Shown here piece by piece: positions 128 to 32,064 of a DNA stretch of 33,861 bases (position 1 is its first letter; every line of letters begins with the position of its first letter). Both the position numbers and the translations under genes were made by a program. The stretch comes from an uncultured Actinomycetes bacterium (GTDB lineage: Bacteria > Actinomycetota > Actinomycetes > UBA12327). Location of the stretch: positions 1 through 33,861 of the forward strand of contig CAIXNN010000020.1 of NCBI GenBank assembly GCA_903920865.1, given 5' to 3'. The notes under the pieces are model-generated. The model was not told the DNA's origin, did no database searches, and was given only the letters and a program-made list of their open reading frames with translations.

Positions 128-601
128 GTGAACTTCCATGGAAGCTTGCGAACCGCTCGTTCCGAACCGTATGTGTGGACGTCGTCAAAGCACTTAGTTC
201 CGGTGTATTACACGCAAGCTCGTTCATCCGTTCCGGGATACGCCTCAGTGTGTGCGTCTGGGCAATCGACGACGACCTTTTGCGGATTAGCTGCCAGTCA
301 ACCGGATACCACGGTCCTGTATTGCGACACAACTGCTTGCGCAAGGAATCCAACTGTTGACAATGTTCACTTGATGAAAGGTCTGACTCGGGTGACGAAA
401 TCTTCAGGTTTGTGCACTCAGCCTGGAGACTCCGGTGGGGCAATATATGTTCCTGCGCTGGGTCCGCATGGCGAGCATGGCGGGGTTCGAGCTGTAGGAA
501 TTCTCAGCGGAGTAAGCACCAGTGACTACTGCACTGTCTTCTACACTCCGGTGTACGTGGCACAAAAACTTTTTCACGCGCGCATCCTGACTATTGGTTG
601 A
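128..601 (+). CDS. N-terminally truncated trypsin-like serine protease (S1 family remnant)
   Basis: The 157-residue product contains the S1 active-site serine motif PGDSGG at residues 99-104 (Ser102) and several cysteines spaced as in streptogrisin/alpha-lytic type proteases. It corresponds only to the C-terminal half of that fold. The signal peptide, pro-region and the half carrying the catalytic His and Asp are absent, because the proB stop lies only 76 bases upstream. A GTG start at 128 has GGAG seven bases before it. The same frame continues upstream through a TAG at 104-106, and the residues after that stop (GLIRSF) resemble the DYGLVR-type segment that follows the catalytic Asp in this family. 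The homology therefore seems to run across a stop codon, and this is probably a decaying pseudogene. Without His and Asp it could not be an active protease. Confidence 0.5.
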   Translation: MNFHGSLRTARSEPYVWTSSKHLVPVYYTQARSSVPGYASVCASGQSTTTFCGLAASQPDTTVLYCDTTACARNPTVDNVHLMKGLTRVTKSSGLCTQPGDSGGAIYVPALGPHGEHGGVRAVGILSGVSTSDYCTVFYTPVYVAQKLFHARILTIG

Positions 602-1193: not shown

Positions 1194-2864
1194 ATGACCT
1201 TCATGATTAAAGATGCCAACTGGCCAGCCGCGATCGCCTTTGCAGCTCTTGGAATTGTTTTTGTGCTGTGGCTTAAGACGTACTTACGTGGCAAACAAGT
1301 CTGGCGCTACGACACCAAGGCGGCGTGGCTGCGCGCCTTCGCTGCTTTCTCTTTTGCTTGGGCCATTGCTATGGCAAGCGGAACAGTGCCGACGATCTTA
1401 GGCAATGCCTGGATCCTTCCCGGTCAAACCAGCGACATCTACTGGGTCATTTACACCATCGTCTTAACCGTTGTCGTCTTTGTGGGCTACTGGATCATCT
1501 GGCCCATCGGCACTTTGCCGCACGGCCGCAAAATCGTTTTCCCTGACACCTTCATTTTTGGTCTTTTGTGGGGAATCAGCGAAGGGTTGTTCTTTGGCTC
1601 GGTGTGGTTGCTTGCTCGGAGATTGTGGAACAACCTACTCAGCACACATCCCTTGATCAGCGACTATGCAACCTGCTTCACCGTCATCTTGGTGTTGTCG
1701 GCATTTATTGGCATGTGGCATGCCCTGTACTGGGATATCCATATCTCGCCAAACCACAACATCATTGAGTGGAATATCCGAAAGGTGTTGCTTGCACACA
1801 ACCCGAACTTGATCTTGGGCGCGATCTACATCACGATGTGGGAGAACCTGGGCATCTGGGTCGCGTTGCAGGCATTTGCCCTGCTCGGTTCAACCCTTGC
1901 CATGCCATTCCCGACCTGGCGTTATCCGCACCCAGCCGATCCGACCGGACCTGACATGGGTGAACCCACTGATGTTCCCACGGACATGAGTGGGCAAACG
2001 GTCATCGTCACCGGTGGAGCCAATGGGATGGGCGCGATGGCCTCTGCCATGTTGGCTGACCTTGGCGCAAACGTGGTGATCCTGGACAAGGACGAGCCAA
2101 ATGCTCGGGCCAACGCGCAAGCCATTGAGAAATCAACTGGAAAAGCCGCTGATGTGATCGTGGCCGACCTGAGTGTGCAATCGCAGGTTCGACAGGCGGC
2201 CAAAGACATCTTGGCGAAATATCCAAAGATTGATGTCTTGATCAATAATGCCGGCATCTTCACCGAGCTGTATTCGGAGGTTGATAACGGCGTGGAACGC
2301 ACGCTGGCCAACAACCACCTGGGCGGCTTCATGTTGACTCAGCTTTTGATGACTCGATTGCAAGAGTCCAAGGCGCGGGTTGTCTTTGTCAGTTCCGATG
2401 CGCACCGTCAAGCTATGAAGGTCAATTGGGATGACATCAATGGCAAAGCGCTATGGAAGGGCAAGGACCGCAATCCCAACGCGGGGTTTGCTCAATACAA
2501 CCTTTCCAAACTCTTTGTTGCATCGGCGGCTATTGAACTGGCTGAGCGTACGAAGGGCACTGGGGTCACCATTAACACCATCGCTCCTGGAGCCTTGATC
2601 CCGACCGGAATCTATGACGATGCCACCGGACCGTTGCCGCTGATCATTAAGTACTTCCGCCCCCTTCTGCGCCAACCGGAAAAGGCCATGATCACCTACA
2701 TATATTTGGCCACTTCGCCAGAGGTTGCCAATGCCAGCGGGTGGTATTGGAAGGACGGCAGATTCCTCGATGCCAGCGAGCTTGCAAGCAGTCAAGAGGT
2801 TCGCGATCAGGTGTGGGAATGGTCAATGAGTCAAACCGGCTTGAGTGCAGCAGCCAACTCGTAG
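1194..2864 (+). CDS. Six-helix membrane domain fused to a short-chain dehydrogenase/reductase
   Basis: The 556-residue product has two parts. Residues 1 to about 240 hold roughly six hydrophobic segments (about 9-30, 45-68, 82-108, 117-140, 158-182 and 205-235). Helix 5 and the following loop carry His176, His183 and His188. Residues from about 265 on are a classical SDR: the nucleotide-binding TGGANGMG at 273-280, NNAG at 351-354, Ser400/401 and the catalytic Tyr435 and Lys439 in a YxxxK motif. The SDR part looks like the retinol-dehydrogenase-like group, so it probably oxidises or reduces a lipophilic alcohol or carbonyl with NAD(P). The membrane half is not a family I can name, and the substrate is unknown. 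No Shine-Dalgarno is visible before the ATG. The gene lies between proB and proA, with no evident link to proline synthesis. Confidence 0.8.
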   Translation: MTFMIKDANWPAAIAFAALGIVFVLWLKTYLRGKQVWRYDTKAAWLRAFAAFSFAWAIAMASGTVPTILGNAWILPGQTSDIYWVIYTIVLTVVVFVGYWIIWPIGTLPHGRKIVFPDTFIFGLLWGISEGLFFGSVWLLARRLWNNLLSTHPLISDYATCFTVILVLSAFIGMWHALYWDIHISPNHNIIEWNIRKVLLAHNPNLILGAIYITMWENLGIWVALQAFALLGSTLAMPFPTWRYPHPADPTGPDMGEPTDVPTDMSGQTVIVTGGANGMGAMASAMLADLGANVVILDKDEPNARANAQAIEKSTGKAADVIVADLSVQSQVRQAAKDILAKYPKIDVLINNAGIFTELYSEVDNGVERTLANNHLGGFMLTQLLMTRLQESKARVVFVSSDAHRQAMKVNWDDINGKALWKGKDRNPNAGFAQYNLSKLFVASAAIELAERTKGTGVTINTIAPGALIPTGIYDDATGPLPLIIKYFRPLLRQPEKAMITYIYLATSPEVANASGWYWKDGRFLDASELASSQEVRDQVWEWSMSQTGLSAAANS

Positions 2865-6088: not shown

Positions 6089-6161
6089 GGGGCTGTGGCG
6101 CAGCTGGTAGCGCACCTGCATGGCATGCAGGGGGTCAGGGGTTCGAGTCCCCTCAGCTCCA
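6089..6161 (+). tRNA. tRNA-Ala (anticodon GGC)
   Basis: A complete cloverleaf is visible. The acceptor stem GGGGCTG pairs with CAGCTCC with one G-U. The D-arm is GCGC...GCGC. The anticodon stem CCTGC/GCAGG encloses the loop ATGGCAT with anticodon GGC, and the T-arm contains GGTTCGAGTCC. The discriminator is A, and CCA is not encoded (the next bases are CAAAG). GGC reads the alanine codons GCC and GCU. The tRNA has 73 bases. A weak hairpin (GATTC/GAATC) lies just downstream. Confidence 0.96.
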
Positions 6162-6223
6162 CAAAGTCTTAGATTCACTCAGAATCAGTCGGCTCATCGC
6201 GTTGTGTATCGCCTACGACAATC

Positions 6224-6259
6224 CCCAGGCTCAACGTGCCGTCGCGCTCTAAGCCTGGG
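6224..6259. terminator. Inverted repeat between tRNA-Ala and the convergent fkbM gene
   Basis: CCCAGGCT (6224-6231) and AGCCTGGG (6252-6259) form a perfect 8-bp stem around a 20-base loop, overlapping the stop codon of the minus-strand gene. It could end transcription from either side. There is no T-tract, so the role is uncertain. Confidence 0.35.
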
Positions 6260-7040
6260 CGACTGCTTCCATCCAGACATCTCGCCGCACGAAGACCGTG
6301 TTGATGCAATCCTTAAAGACAATGTGGTAACCGCTATCGAGAATGTGCAAACCCAATTGGGCATCTTTGCCAGCCGTGGTCGACAAGTCCGGATGCGTAT
6401 CGGCGAGCTCAATGATCAGCAGGCGCGGGCGCCATTTACTAAGGTCAAAACCTGCGAAGACTTCAGTTTCTAATCCCTCCACGTCCACAACTAGAACTTC
6501 AAACCCTTCAACGATACTTCGAGAATCGAGAAAATCGTTGAGCGTCTGGCACGGAACCACGACCTGAGAAGTTGTTAATGCATCAGAGGCCCAATCAATC
6601 GTTGAATATTCGGCAAAAACGTCCGCATTTCCGGTGGTCAGCGTTCCCGCAAGTTTCAAGGTGATGCTGTCAGTTCCTGGCGCGCCGATGGCCGATTCGA
6701 TGACTTCAATATGTGGATGTGTTGAGTGGTTGGCCCGGCATCGCTCAGCTAAGTAAGGGACGGGTTCAAGCATGAATCCGTTCCACCCGCGCTCAGCCAG
6801 CCCCCAGGTATTGCTTACGAAAGTTCCATCGTAAGCGCCGACCTCAACGAAGGTACCCGATTCGCGTTCACCCAAGAATCGGGAAAACAAGAACCACAGG
6901 TACGGGATTTGACAGGATTCCTGTTGCGGGTAGTAGGCCCTTGATCGAGCCAGTTCGTCAGAGGAGCGGGGAGCAATAATTCGTGAAATCCTGTGGCGAA
7001 CGCCACGCTGAATCCGCGTGATTGAGCTATTGGTTGGCAT
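6249..7040 (-). CDS. FkbM-family SAM-dependent methyltransferase
   Basis: The 263-residue protein has the FkbM pattern: FVEVGAYDG (the SAM-binding glycine loop) at about residues 64-72, FMLEPVP after the next strand, VIESAIG, and VLVVDVEGLETEV followed by LLIIE near the C-terminal third. Enzymes of this family methylate sugar or other hydroxyl groups on glycans, lipids and antibiotics, so a cell-envelope glycan is a reasonable but unproven substrate. AGGGAG lies seven bases before the ATG. The gene stands alone on the minus strand, convergent with tRNA-Ala and divergent from the lysozyme gene. No other glycan genes are near, so its context is no help. Confidence 0.85.
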   Translation of the reverse strand: MPTNSSITRIQRGVRHRISRIIAPRSSDELARSRAYYPQQESCQIPYLWFLFSRFLGERESGTFVEVGAYDGTFVSNTWGLAERGWNGFMLEPVPYLAERCRANHSTHPHIEVIESAIGAPGTDSITLKLAGTLTTGNADVFAEYSTIDWASDALTTSQVVVPCQTLNDFLDSRSIVEGFEVLVVDVEGLETEVFAGFDLSKWRPRLLIIELADTHPDLSTTAGKDAQLGLHILDSGYHIVFKDCINTVFVRRDVWMEAVAQA

Positions 7041-7250: not shown

Positions 7251-8918
7251 ATGCGCGAAGCCTTTTCACGCCCTAGCTTGTATCGGGCGCGCAATCGGTT
7301 CGCTGTTGTTGCCTCAACCCTTGCCCTCATTGTCGGCGCATTCACTGTTGTTCATGCTGAAGCAGCAACCACCATTACCGGCGTTGATGTTTCGCGCTGG
7401 GATCACTCAGCCACCACCGCTTACCCCAAGGGCACGCCTATTGACTGGGTCAAGGTCAAGGCCGCTGGGCGAAGTTTCGCCATTGTCAAAGCCAGTGAGA
7501 ACACCAACTATCGAAGTCCTTACTTTGTTTCTGACTATCAGCAGGCGCGAGCTGCCGGTTTGGTGGTTGGTTCCTACCACTTCGCTCGACCTGCGTTGCC
7601 GCTTTCAACGGCAACCGATCAAGCCAAGTACTACGTAAGTACGGTTTTGCAAGCCGGGGCGTTCAATGCCAGGGATTCATTCCCGCCGATCCTCGACCTT
7701 GAAGTAACCGGCGGGCTTTCCCGATCAAACCTGATCGCTTGGACTCAACAGTTCTTAACTACATCTCGCGCGCTGACGGGGCGCACACCGATTCTGTACA
7801 CCTATGACTCCTTCGTTCGCAACACGATGGGCAATACGAAACTGTTTACCAGTTATCCACTGTGGTACGCGCGCTACAGCTCGATTGTTCCCACTTCTGC
7901 AACATTGCCTGGTGGCTGGAATCAATGGACCATGTGGCAGTACACCTCCACGGAAACCACTAACGGGATTATTGGCAAGGGCGATGTCAGTCGTTGGAAT
8001 GGAACCATTTCTGCACTGCACATTTTTGCCGATGGTCGAAAGACCGGATATGCACCACCGTCTGCTCCCAATAACCCTGTTGTTACACCAGGCGTTGCTT
8101 CGGCAACGTTGAATTGGGAGCTTCCCACCGATGAAGGTGGCGTTGTGGTGAACCGCTATCGCGTGAGCATTGATTCCGGGCTCGAGACTGTGACCCCTTC
8201 AACATCCTTTGTTGCTATCGCTTTGACTCCTGGCAATCACACCTATTCCATTTCGGCAGAAAATGTTGCCGGTATCGGTCAGGCGGTAACGGGCACCTTC
8301 ACGATGCCCCCCTTTGACGCGAACGCCACGATCACTCCCGTGGCTTTGACTCTGACATCGGTTAACGCACCGACCGGCTCCGCACTAACTTCTAATGTTG
8401 TTCAAGTTCAACTCTCCCGTGCAGATACCGGCCAAGCCATTAATGGCGCAACGGTCAACATTTTGGTGCGACCCGAACTGGGAACAGTGTGGACCACGGC
8501 AGTTATCACCACCGATGTTGAAGGAGTGGGAACCACAACCTTCAAAGCACCGGTTGATGCCAGTATCACTGCAACCACCCAAGCCGGAGTTTGGTACAAC
8601 GCTTCGCGTGCTCGCTCATACATCCGCATTAAGCCAGCGTTGAGCGCAGTCTTGAGCACGGTGAGTGTGAAGCGCACCGGATTGGTCAAACTTCGTGGTG
8701 GCACCACTGCCCTCTTAGCTGGACAAAAGATCTATCGCCAGGTTTACGCCGGCGGCCGATGGAACACGGTGGCTTCGTCCACCATTTCGCCTTCTGGGCG
8801 CTATGTCTTCACCGTCCCGACCAACACCAAGGGCGTCAAAAAGGTGCGTGCGTACCTGCCCTTGACCCCCCGTCACCTTGCGGTGGGTTCTCGCACCGTG
8901 GTGCTGACCGTTCGCTAA
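7251..8918 (+). CDS. Secreted GH25 lysozyme with fibronectin-III and Ig-like C-terminal domains
   Basis: The enzyme should hydrolyse the N-acetylmuramyl-N-acetylglucosamine bond of peptidoglycan outside the cell. Residues 1 to about 39 are a signal peptide with a basic start and an AEA/A-type cleavage site. Residues 43 to about 260 are glycoside hydrolase family 25: GVDVSRWD at the start, the catalytic pair in DLE (Asp149, Glu151) and MWQYTS near the end. Residues 270 to about 370 look like a fibronectin type III domain (VVNRYRVSID, SISAENVAG). The remaining 185 residues are beta-rich and Ig-like, and the last 90 resemble the C-terminus of the subtilisin at 30025-32064. GGAGG lies seven bases before the ATG. 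It could act in wall turnover or against competitors. Confidence 0.9.
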   Translation: MREAFSRPSLYRARNRFAVVASTLALIVGAFTVVHAEAATTITGVDVSRWDHSATTAYPKGTPIDWVKVKAAGRSFAIVKASENTNYRSPYFVSDYQQARAAGLVVGSYHFARPALPLSTATDQAKYYVSTVLQAGAFNARDSFPPILDLEVTGGLSRSNLIAWTQQFLTTSRALTGRTPILYTYDSFVRNTMGNTKLFTSYPLWYARYSSIVPTSATLPGGWNQWTMWQYTSTETTNGIIGKGDVSRWNGTISALHIFADGRKTGYAPPSAPNNPVVTPGVASATLNWELPTDEGGVVVNRYRVSIDSGLETVTPSTSFVAIALTPGNHTYSISAENVAGIGQAVTGTFTMPPFDANATITPVALTLTSVNAPTGSALTSNVVQVQLSRADTGQAINGATVNILVRPELGTVWTTAVITTDVEGVGTTTFKAPVDASITATTQAGVWYNASRARSYIRIKPALSAVLSTVSVKRTGLVKLRGGTTALLAGQKIYRQVYAGGRWNTVASSTISPSGRYVFTVPTNTKGVKKVRAYLPLTPRHLAVGSRTVVLTVR

Positions 8919-29009: not shown

Positions 29010-29920
29010 GCTATCGCAGCGGCTTTGCCTGTTTTGTTGGCCGCCCAAATACCGGCAAGTCCACGCTGACTAATGCTCTTGTTGGAAGCAAGGTGGCAAT
29101 TACCTCTGATCGTCCCCAAACCACCAGACATGCGGTGCGCGGCATCGTCAATCGCGATGATGCACAACTGATTCTGGTTGATACCCCCGGCGTGCATAAG
29201 CCACGAACCCTTTTGGGCCAGCGGCTCAATGATGTGGTGCGCGGAACCTGGGCTGACGTAGATGTCATCGCCTTTTGTGTTCCGGCCGATGAGAAGCCAG
29301 GCCCGGGAGATCGGTTTATTTTGCAAGAAGTCAGCCAAGCAACGCGCATCCCCAAAATTGCTGTGGTCACCAAAATCGACAAAATTAGTCCCAGTGCCCT
29401 GATGGAACAGCTCGTCGCAGTTCAAGAACTTGGCGCACAAGCTGGCATTCAATGGCAGGAGGTCATTCCGGTCTCGGCCGTTAAAGGCGAGCAAGTAGAA
29501 CTCCTTACCGATTTGCTCGTTGCCCTGCTTCCTGAAGGACCGAAACTTTTCCCCGATGAGATTGCCACCGACGAAACTCAATTTGTCATGGTGGCCGAAC
29601 TCATACGCGAAGCGGCCCTTGAAGGCGTGCGCGATGAGTTGCCGCACTCCATTGCAGTGGTGGTGGAAGAGATCACACCCCGCGAAGATCGCCCCGTTGA
29701 TCGACCCATGATGGACATCACGGCCTTCATCTATATCGAGCGGGACAGCCAAAAGGCCATCGTGATTGGCAAAGGTGGGCAGCGCCTCAAAGATGTGGGA
29801 ACCGCGGCTCGGCGTGAGATCGAAGCGCTGATCGGTATGCCGGTCCACCTGGATCTGAGGGTCAAAGTGGCAAAGGATTGGCAACGAGACCCAAAGCAGT
29901 TGCGAAAGCTGGGCTTCTAG
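29006..29920 (+). CDS. era: GTPase Era
   Basis: Era binds the 3' end of 16S rRNA and helps mature the 30S subunit. The 304-residue protein has G1 GRPNTGKS (residues 12-19), G3 DTPGVHKP, G4 TKID and the C-terminal KH domain with VIGKGGQRLKDVG. The length is normal. The GTG start overlaps the preceding stop in GTGA. It closes the phoH-ybeY-CBS-CDA-like-era block, where YbeY and Era both act on 16S rRNA maturation. Confidence 0.97.
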   Translation: MSYRSGFACFVGRPNTGKSTLTNALVGSKVAITSDRPQTTRHAVRGIVNRDDAQLILVDTPGVHKPRTLLGQRLNDVVRGTWADVDVIAFCVPADEKPGPGDRFILQEVSQATRIPKIAVVTKIDKISPSALMEQLVAVQELGAQAGIQWQEVIPVSAVKGEQVELLTDLLVALLPEGPKLFPDEIATDETQFVMVAELIREAALEGVRDELPHSIAVVVEEITPREDRPVDRPMMDITAFIYIERDSQKAIVIGKGGQRLKDVGTAARREIEALIGMPVHLDLRVKVAKDWQRDPKQLRKLGF

Positions 29921-30024
29921 GCCATCTGGAGGATGGCAACTGGGTGTGGAATGTGTTTCACTTTAGGTCTCGGCCTGCCGATGACACCCTTGTGGCATTG
30001 GCACGATGCCGTCTGGAGGACGCC

Positions 30025-32064
30025 ATGAGGTCTCGATCAGCCCTTGGGCTGGTGGCCGTCCTATCCGCCGTTGCGATGACCGCCGGACTCACAGGCGCGC
30101 CAGCCATTGCGGCCAGCAAAAAGGCCCCTGGGGCAGTGCGCATTACTTCGTCAGCGCACCTCAAGCGTCCAGCAACCGTGCCTGGCCAAGTCATCGTGCG
30201 CTACAAGGCCGGAGTTTCCACCGGGAGTCGAGCCGTGGTCCGTCAGAGATCAGGCGGAGCTCTCATTGAGAAATTGTCCCTAGCCCGTACCGAGACCATC
30301 AAAGTCGCATCCGGTCAAACTGTCGCCCAAACTGTGGCCCAACTGCAAAGCAATCCTCAGGTCGACCTCGCGCAACCAAATTTTCGTTACTACCCAACCA
30401 GCACGCCAGAGCCCTATGAAGGCTATGAGTGGGGACTTAATAACACCGGTCAAGTTCCTGAGCCAAATTACTGCGCAACGTGTTTTGGCACCTTCGATGT
30501 TGACATCAATGCGCCTGAAGCGTGGGCACTTCCCTCTGGAACCGGTTCCTCCAGTGTTGTCGTCGGGGTCATTGATACCGGAATTGATATCTACCATCCC
30601 GATCTAGCTTCTGCGATTTGGACCAACCCAGGCGAGATCCCTGGCAATGGCATTGATGACGATGGAAACGGTTTTGTTGACGATGTCAATGGTTGGAATT
30701 TTTACAACGGCACTAACACCGTCTATGACGGCATCACCTGCGCATCAGGATCAGCATCGGCCGGCGAAAATGAAGACCTCCACGGAACGCACGTAGCCGG
30801 CACCATCGCTGCTCAACGCAATGGCCTAGGTGTCGTTGGGGTGGCAGCTGGCGTCAAAATTTTGCCTTTGAAGGCCTTGGGTTGTGATGGCGGATCAACC
30901 ACCGATGTGATCAGCGCTTTGGAGTATGCGAAGTCCATGGGCGTGAAGATCGTGAACATGAGTCTGGGTGGGGCTGGTTATGACCAAGTCTTCAAAGACG
31001 CGATCGACGCATCAGGTGTGCTGGTCGTGGCGGCCGCGGGTAATGGCGGTAGCAATGGAGTGGGCGACAACAATGACCTAGTCGGTTCTGAAACTCCTGA
31101 GTACCCGGCTTCGTACACATCGCCGAACATCATCTCGGTTGCATCGATCAACAACGTGGGAGCCCTGTCGTCATTTTCAAACTATGGCGCAACCAGTGTG
31201 GACGTCGGTGCTCCTGGCGAATCCATCATCAGCACGATCCCACCAGTTTCCTGCAGCTCCGGATCGGGAACCTGCTACTACGCCTGGCTTGATGGCACCT
31301 CCATGGCCACCCCGCATGTCACCGGAACTGCCGCACTGGTGCTGTCCACAGATATCTCGCAGTCTGCGTCGGCAATCAAGGCCCGCATTATGAACAACAC
31401 TCGTTCGTTGAGTTCGCTCAGCGGTAAAACGGTCACTGGCGGGCTGGTGGATGCGCAAGCCGCGGTCGCCGATGTTCCAGCGGTAAAGCAGCCAACAACA
31501 CTTTCTATTACTCGGACTGCATCAACGATCACTACGGGTCAAGGTGTCAAGATTTCCACCCAGCTGCTAGCTAATGGCTCTCCGGCCGCGGGCCGAACGT
31601 TGGTTCTGCAGCGTTATACCAATGGCTGGCGAAATATTTGTTGGCCGACAACTAACAGTTTGGGGCAGGCGTCGTGTTACCTGTATCCCTCGACCTCATC
31701 GGACTACATGTGGGTCTTTTCCGGTGACCCAGGTTTGCAGCCGGCTTGGTCAAGTCACCCCATCGTGTATGTGCGCCCATCGATTGCATCGAAGCTTTCA
31801 GCGAGCACCGTTCGGCGTGGGTCAAGCGTGACCTTCTCAGGCAGTATTTCTCCGTCAAAGAAGGGCGCCCTGCTGCGCCTGCAGCGCAAGTCCGGATCAT
31901 CGTGGGTGACCATGACCAAGACTGCGATTACCTCAAGAAATACCTATTCCTTCACCTTCAAGGCGAGTGCGTCAGGGACCTATTCCTACCGCGCATACTT
32001 CTACGGGGACTCCTACAACGCGGCCCAGGCCAGCTCAACCCGTTCGCTTAAAGTCAATCCTTAG
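30025..32064 (+). CDS. Secreted subtilisin-type serine protease (S8) with C-terminal Ig-like domains
   Basis: I start the gene at ATG 30025, because GGAGGA lies five bases upstream and a classic signal peptide follows (MRSRSALGLVAVLSAVAMTA, cleavage near APAIAA). The open frame extends upstream to 29878 inside era, but that part lacks such signals. The 679-residue product has an I9-like propeptide (PGQVIVRYKAGV to about residue 120) and a subtilisin domain with Asp184 (VIDTGID), His253 (HGTHVAG) and Ser426 (GTSMATPH). DDDGNGFVDDVNGW looks like a calcium-binding loop. Two beta-rich repeats follow from about residue 490. The last resembles the C-terminus of the lysozyme at 7251-8918. It is likely a degradative or processing exoprotease. 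Confidence 0.92.
   Translation: MRSRSALGLVAVLSAVAMTAGLTGAPAIAASKKAPGAVRITSSAHLKRPATVPGQVIVRYKAGVSTGSRAVVRQRSGGALIEKLSLARTETIKVASGQTVAQTVAQLQSNPQVDLAQPNFRYYPTSTPEPYEGYEWGLNNTGQVPEPNYCATCFGTFDVDINAPEAWALPSGTGSSSVVVGVIDTGIDIYHPDLASAIWTNPGEIPGNGIDDDGNGFVDDVNGWNFYNGTNTVYDGITCASGSASAGENEDLHGTHVAGTIAAQRNGLGVVGVAAGVKILPLKALGCDGGSTTDVISALEYAKSMGVKIVNMSLGGAGYDQVFKDAIDASGVLVVAAAGNGGSNGVGDNNDLVGSETPEYPASYTSPNIISVASINNVGALSSFSNYGATSVDVGAPGESIISTIPPVSCSSGSGTCYYAWLDGTSMATPHVTGTAALVLSTDISQSASAIKARIMNNTRSLSSLSGKTVTGGLVDAQAAVADVPAVKQPTTLSITRTASTITTGQGVKISTQLLANGSPAAGRTLVLQRYTNGWRNICWPTTNSLGQASCYLYPSTSSDYMWVFSGDPGLQPAWSSHPIVYVRPSIASKLSASTVRRGSSVTFSGSISPSKKGALLRLQRKSGSSWVTMTKTAITSRNTYSFTFKASASGTYSYRAYFYGDSYNAAQASSTRSLKVNP

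Follow-up and report, generated by a model that had tools for sequence, protein, structure and literature searches.

A seven-helix membrane domain with an enzyme-like polar site, fused to a short-chain dehydrogenase in one actinobacterial lineage

Introduction

Classical short-chain dehydrogenases (SDRs) are recognized by a TGxxxGxG nucleotide-binding motif, an NNAG motif, a catalytic Ser and a YxxxK motif, and an Asp that ends strand beta-2 points to NAD(H). The retinol-dehydrogenase-like SDRs of eukaryotic microsomes take retinoids, steroids and oxylipins as substrates (PMC8761697).

Membrane enzymes without a family name constitute a real annotation gap, and several described multi-helix families offer points of comparison. 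The CREST proteins (alkaline ceramidase, PAQR and HlyIII) have seven helices and, close to one face of the membrane, three conserved His and an Asp, TM2 ending in SxxxH and TM7 beginning with HxxxH (PMC3146951). The CPBP/Rce1-like proteases (PF02517) display conserved His at helix ends and the motif series EExxxR, FxxxH and HxxxN/D, the steroid 5-alpha-reductases (PF02544) and DUF1295 proteins are multi-helix membrane reductases, and the membrane fatty-acid hydroxylases and sterol desaturases hold eight His in three boxes (HX3-4H, HX2-3HH and HX2-3HH).

Here we analyze a 33,861-nt stretch of DNA from an uncultured Actinomycetes bacterium, referred to below as the window, in which a single gene joins a multi-helix membrane domain to an SDR. 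The membrane domain is best read as belonging to an orphan family of actinobacterial membrane proteins that has an enzyme-like polar site and became fused, in one lineage, to an SDR that may act on a membrane lipid or isoprenoid alcohol.

Results

The fusion gene opens with an ATG and is preceded by an in-frame stop at position 1152 (Table 1). As proposed in a preliminary description of this DNA, a membrane N-terminal half precedes a complete SDR, with the first half being hydrophobic and the second matching Pfam adh_short (E=1.2e-29) with full catalytic motifs. This C-terminal half is probably a retinol-dehydrogenase-like SDR, motif-complete for catalysis. Its best NCBIfam subfamilies are PRK06197 (125.3 bits against a cut-off of 268) and PRK06196 (124.2 against 414), both of which lie far under threshold, and its closest PDB relatives are 3t4x and 3rd5; in addition, the more distant protochlorophyllide reductases align across the whole domain. 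The likeness to these retinol-dehydrogenase-like proteins extends over the full length and includes the Rossmann motif, NNAG, Ser and YxxxK. Unlike the window fusion, however, the retinol-dehydrogenase-like SDR records that we met have no multi-helix N-terminal domain of ~245 residues. By the general SDR rule, the Asp at the end of beta-2 (VVILDKDE) suggests that the domain probably uses NAD(H).

Table 1. Features of the fusion gene (positions in the window; residues of the 556-aa protein)
Feature	Position	Strand	Basis
ORF of the fusion (556 aa), comprising membrane domain, linker and SDR	1194-2864	+	ORF call; orthologues in L001, L002/L007, L003/L009, L008
Membrane domain (residues 1-245) with seven predicted helices	1194-1928	+	AlphaFold2; outside Pfam and NCBIfam
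Invariant R112 codon, helix 3-4 loop, predicted cytoplasmic	1527-1529	+	12/12 homologues
H176-A-L-Y-W-D181, predicted cytoplasmic end of helix 5; invariant H176, W180, D181	1719-1736	+	alignment
Invariant H188 codon, helix 5-6 loop	1755-1757	+	12/12 homologues
K197-V-L-L-A-H202-N-P204-N205, start of helix 6; invariant K197, H202, P204	1782-1808	+	alignment
Proline-rich linker, residues 246-262	1929-1979	+	less conserved than either domain
SDR domain, residues 263-550	1980-2843	+	Pfam adh_short, motif positions
TGGANGMG (TGxxxGxG nucleotide-binding motif), residues 273-280	2010-2033	+	motif position
VVILDKDE, residues 294-301	2073-2096	+	motif position
NNAG, residues 351-354	2244-2255	+	motif position
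VSS (catalytic Ser), residues 399-401		+	motif position
Y435xxxK439	2496-2510	+	motif position

The possibility that the two halves had been joined by an annotation or assembly error, which the preliminary description had raised, can be set aside. Orthologous fusions are present in actinobacterium acAMD-2 (L002/L007), a Lac Pavin MAG (L001, near G002/L008) and a third MAG (L003/L009), and at least three other species share both the fusion and its gene order beside proA. Between orthologues, the membrane half is 84-89% and the SDR half 77-78% identical, with linker residues 251-263 falling below both domains at 69%. The corresponding dN/dS values, ~0.01-0.06 in the membrane half and ~0.06-0.10 in the SDR half, are approximate for comparisons with the window, where synonymous sites are near saturation. 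Thus, both halves are under purifying selection, the membrane half evolving more slowly, and the recurrence of the fusion in independent assemblies together with this selection excludes a chance event or artefact.

In acAMD-2 (L002), the gene order reads obg, proB, a trypsin-like gene, a small secreted-looking protein, the fusion and proA (names taken from the translations, the trypsin match alone from Pfam), and the window matches it from the trypsin-like gene onward. A sister genus (L042) has an SDR with 64% identity to that of the window ahead of proA, on a contig that stops within the SDR. The trypsin-like gene of the window (128-601) is far shorter than its 468-aa counterpart in L002; position 1 of the window is also the start of its contig. 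The acAMD-2 fusion ORF (L002 4995-6566 / L007 724-2295) has a frameshift near the SDR C-terminus, past the catalytic residues, which may be genuine or a sequencing error. A literature search retrieved neither the fusion architecture nor the name acAMD-2.

An AlphaFold2 model of the membrane domain, built from 12 sequences, reached a pLDDT of 91 and a pTM of 0.88. It places helices at residues 10-30, 41-62, 82-105, 118-148, 153-184, 191-216 and 219-236; that is, seven rather than the six originally counted. Since the stand-alone relatives from another class (see below) seem to begin near helix 2, as judged from predicted start codons, the family probably has a six-helix core to which an additional first helix has been joined in the lineage of the window. 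Positive charges (R/K) occur in loops 32-40 and 111-117 and are absent from loop 63-81, which by the positive-inside rule argues for an N-out/C-in topology.

Aligning 12 membrane domains, down to 25% identity, left just six fully invariant ionizable residues: R112, H176, D181, H188, K197 and H202. All six are predicted to lie on the cytoplasmic side, which they would share with the SDR. They were invariant already in an earlier alignment (A2) and were retained, six of six, in the divergent sequences L025 and L026 added later, an addition that removed N205, N218, V223, Q226 and G63 from the invariant list. The preliminary description had named a WH pair, two further His and an acidic residue in helix 4, all of which are present (WH 175-176, H183, H188 and E130) yet fare differently under this comparison. 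H176 and H188 are invariant, while H183 gives way to Y, W, E or R in homologues and E130 is a Ser in the stand-alone subfamily; we have therefore dropped H183 and E130 as site members. Conversely, the invariant H202 had not been listed. The proposal of a catalytic or metal-binding domain thus remains plausible, since two of the three named His are conserved at ~25% identity, albeit with a different site: the candidate is now H176-D181-H188-H202 with R112 and K197. A metalloenzyme would fit the three invariant His and the single Asp, though these are not proof of one, and with just 12 homologues known, part of the conservation may be structural.

The membrane domain family is undescribed in that it is absent from the Pfam, NCBIfam and PDB searches made here, by sequence and by fold. 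Scans of every membrane-domain homologue against Pfam and NCBIfam to E=10 gave chance-level matches only, as did a profile search of PDB sequences (GPCRs and CP47). Foldseek comparisons of two models with the PDB, and of the first model with BFVD, yielded no hit below 0.001, with TM-scores of about 0.1-0.4.

Targeted comparisons with the families introduced above led to the same outcome. While the domain resembles CREST proteins in helix number and in the His and Asp near one face, its site is carried by other helices, its motif spacing differs (there is neither an SxxxH closing TM2 nor an HxxxH opening TM7), and profile and fold similarity are absent (hhalign against HlyIII members, 0.13% probability, P=0.44). 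The CPBP proteases share conserved His at helix ends and a weak structural alignment of a CAAX protease in BFVD; here, EExxxR is absent, E130 is not conserved, and hhalign gave P=0.18-0.2. A loose PN....EW resemblance to the steroid 5-alpha-reductase/DUF1295 proteins at residues 186-193 is at odds with the stand-alone subfamily, which has no EW, and hhalign against six actinobacterial PF02544 members gave P=0.17-0.25. As for the fatty-acid hydroxylases and sterol desaturases, the only spacing in the window protein that recalls their His boxes is H183-x4-H188, which includes the unconserved H183, and there is no Pfam match to E=10.

The homologue searches covered sampled genomes of one phylum, a public genome collection (full-length protein query, one scan), viral contigs and plasmids. 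Stand-alone homologues, for which the preliminary description had suggested looking, indeed exist, both in the order of the window and in another class. The genome of the window holds three copies: the window fusion, a second fusion on contig C11 (L012) and a stand-alone gene on contig C9 (L015), the last 25-29% identical to the window membrane domain. All six genomes of this order examined have at least one copy, and in a class-wide scan the same six were the only carriers among 395. In the rest of the phylum the domain is rare: another class contributed three credible stand-alone copies (L022, L025 and L026), a further scan of 395 genomes of that second class added no homologue, and plasmids and viral contigs had no relatives. 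The weak matches L027 and L028, with E-values between about 7e-4 and 9e-4 and internal stops in the latter, were left out of these counts, and a match in an MraY region (L023) was rejected as false. Profile-profile comparison links the subfamilies at 99.7-100% probability, indicating a single family.

The further suggestion that stand-alone copies might adjoin separate SDR genes did not hold on the contigs that we read, where no neighboring SDR was recognized; this check consisted of reading translation starts, most neighbors being without a Pfam scan. Instead, within the order of the window, the stand-alone gene is divergent (head-to-head) from a TauD/TfdA dioxygenase gene in five genomes of two genera (L010, L011, L013, L014 and L015, the Pfam match having been obtained from the L015 copy). 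On its other side, a helicase-like gene is convergent in the four contigs that reach that far. Because the neighborhood is generally conserved, helicase gene included, the TauD linkage is weak functional evidence. The other-class relatives have no redox neighbor in common.

The second fusion in the genome of the window (L012 1435-3018; 527 aa, reading frame intact) provides a comparison of the two halves. Its SDR half has lost TGxxxGxG (now TGVGSSTI), NNAG (now DDWA), the Ser and YxxxK. Compared with the window copy, this half is 24% identical with a pairwise dN/dS of 0.4-0.5, as against 51% and 0.10-0.17 for the membrane half, which on these sequence measures is the better-preserved part. Since this paralogue keeps a dead SDR, SDR catalysis is apparently not always required. 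A FAD_binding_3 monooxygenase gene lies two genes downstream, with an IclR regulator beyond.

Discussion

Our tentative reading, which we hold to be a real possibility while stopping short of calling it probable, is that the fusion is a membrane-embedded oxidoreductase whose membrane domain handles a hydrophobic substrate for the attached SDR. The membrane domain would pick a lipid, isoprenoid or other hydrophobic alcohol or ketone out of the bilayer and hold it at the conserved His3-Asp-Arg-Lys site, predicted to be at the cytoplasmic membrane surface, possibly with a metal and possibly performing chemistry of its own. The substrate would then be handed to the SDR, predicted to be cytoplasmic and tethered via the short proline-rich linker, which would oxidize or reduce it, probably with NAD(H). 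We favor this reading because the six invariant residues map to the same end of helices 5 and 6 and to loops that their charge predicts to lie inside, on the SDR side; because the SDR motifs are complete, with similarity to retinol-dehydrogenase- and protochlorophyllide-reductase-like SDRs; because the membrane half is the slower-evolving of the two; and because the family keeps company with three kinds of redox partner, namely the fused SDR, the TauD/TfdA dioxygenase and, in the C11 stretch, a flavin monooxygenase. A more far-reaching version, which we consider rather unlikely, is the first recognized example of a new integral-membrane metalloenzyme fold (His3-Asp) in a two-step enzyme, whose membrane site would make or release a lipid alcohol that the SDR then oxidizes before it can leave the membrane surface.

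Alternatively, the membrane domain might be a non-catalytic lipid-binding or anchor module, its invariant residues binding a lipid through its phosphorylated or carboxylated head group and all chemistry being left to the SDR (or to TauD in trans). The presence of Arg and Lys in the invariant set would suit such a role, as would the pairing of the same module with different redox partners, and with E130 and H183 unconserved, there is no complete classical metal box. However, three invariant His and one Asp would be unusual in a mere anchor, and the other-class stand-alone copies have no shared enzyme neighbor; we regard this explanation as unlikely, albeit one to be taken seriously. The dead SDR of the C11 paralogue, which retains the two-domain layout despite the loss of TGxxxGxG, NNAG, Ser and YxxxK, points in another direction: a seven-helix sensor or receptor for a membrane-soluble ligand, with the Rossmann half reporting NAD(H) state or ligand binding and catalysis being secondary. 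This seems improbable to us, as the window copy has all its catalytic residues retained under purifying selection in several species, and a signaling output domain is absent.

The invariant His that helices 5 and 6 place close to one face of the membrane could also be heme or quinone ligands, making the fusion an electron-transfer dehydrogenase. There is, however, no Pfam cytochrome match to E=10; a His pair with the spacing or depth of known b-type heme proteins is not apparent here, and SDRs are not normally known to pass electrons to heme, which leaves this idea with very little weight. Finally, an intramembrane metal hydrolase or protease acting like CREST (ceramidase/PAQR) or CPBP enzymes is suggested by a likeness to CREST (PMC3146951) in having seven helices and, close to one face, three His and an Asp, and by a CAAX protease being among the higher TM-scores for named proteins in BFVD (TM 0.34-0.38, but E=1.5). 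Given the different motif layout (no SxxxH at TM2 end, HxxxH at TM7 or EExxxR), profile comparisons at P of about 0.2-0.47 and a PDB fold search without a significant match, such an activity appears very unlikely.

In this gene, an enzyme-like invariant site lies in a confidently modeled seven-helix domain that has no Pfam, NCBIfam or PDB counterpart and is joined to a dehydrogenase. The fusion, the stand-alone gene and the copy whose dehydrogenase is dead amount to a natural set for testing what the membrane half does.

Elsewhere, the window encodes an FkbM-domain methyltransferase (6249-7040, minus strand) near a tRNA-Ala gene (6089-6162, plus strand), a secreted-looking GH25 lysozyme-like protein of 555 aa (7251-8918) and a subtilase that has an Ig-like domain and a prodomain of the Fervidolysin type (29878-32064).
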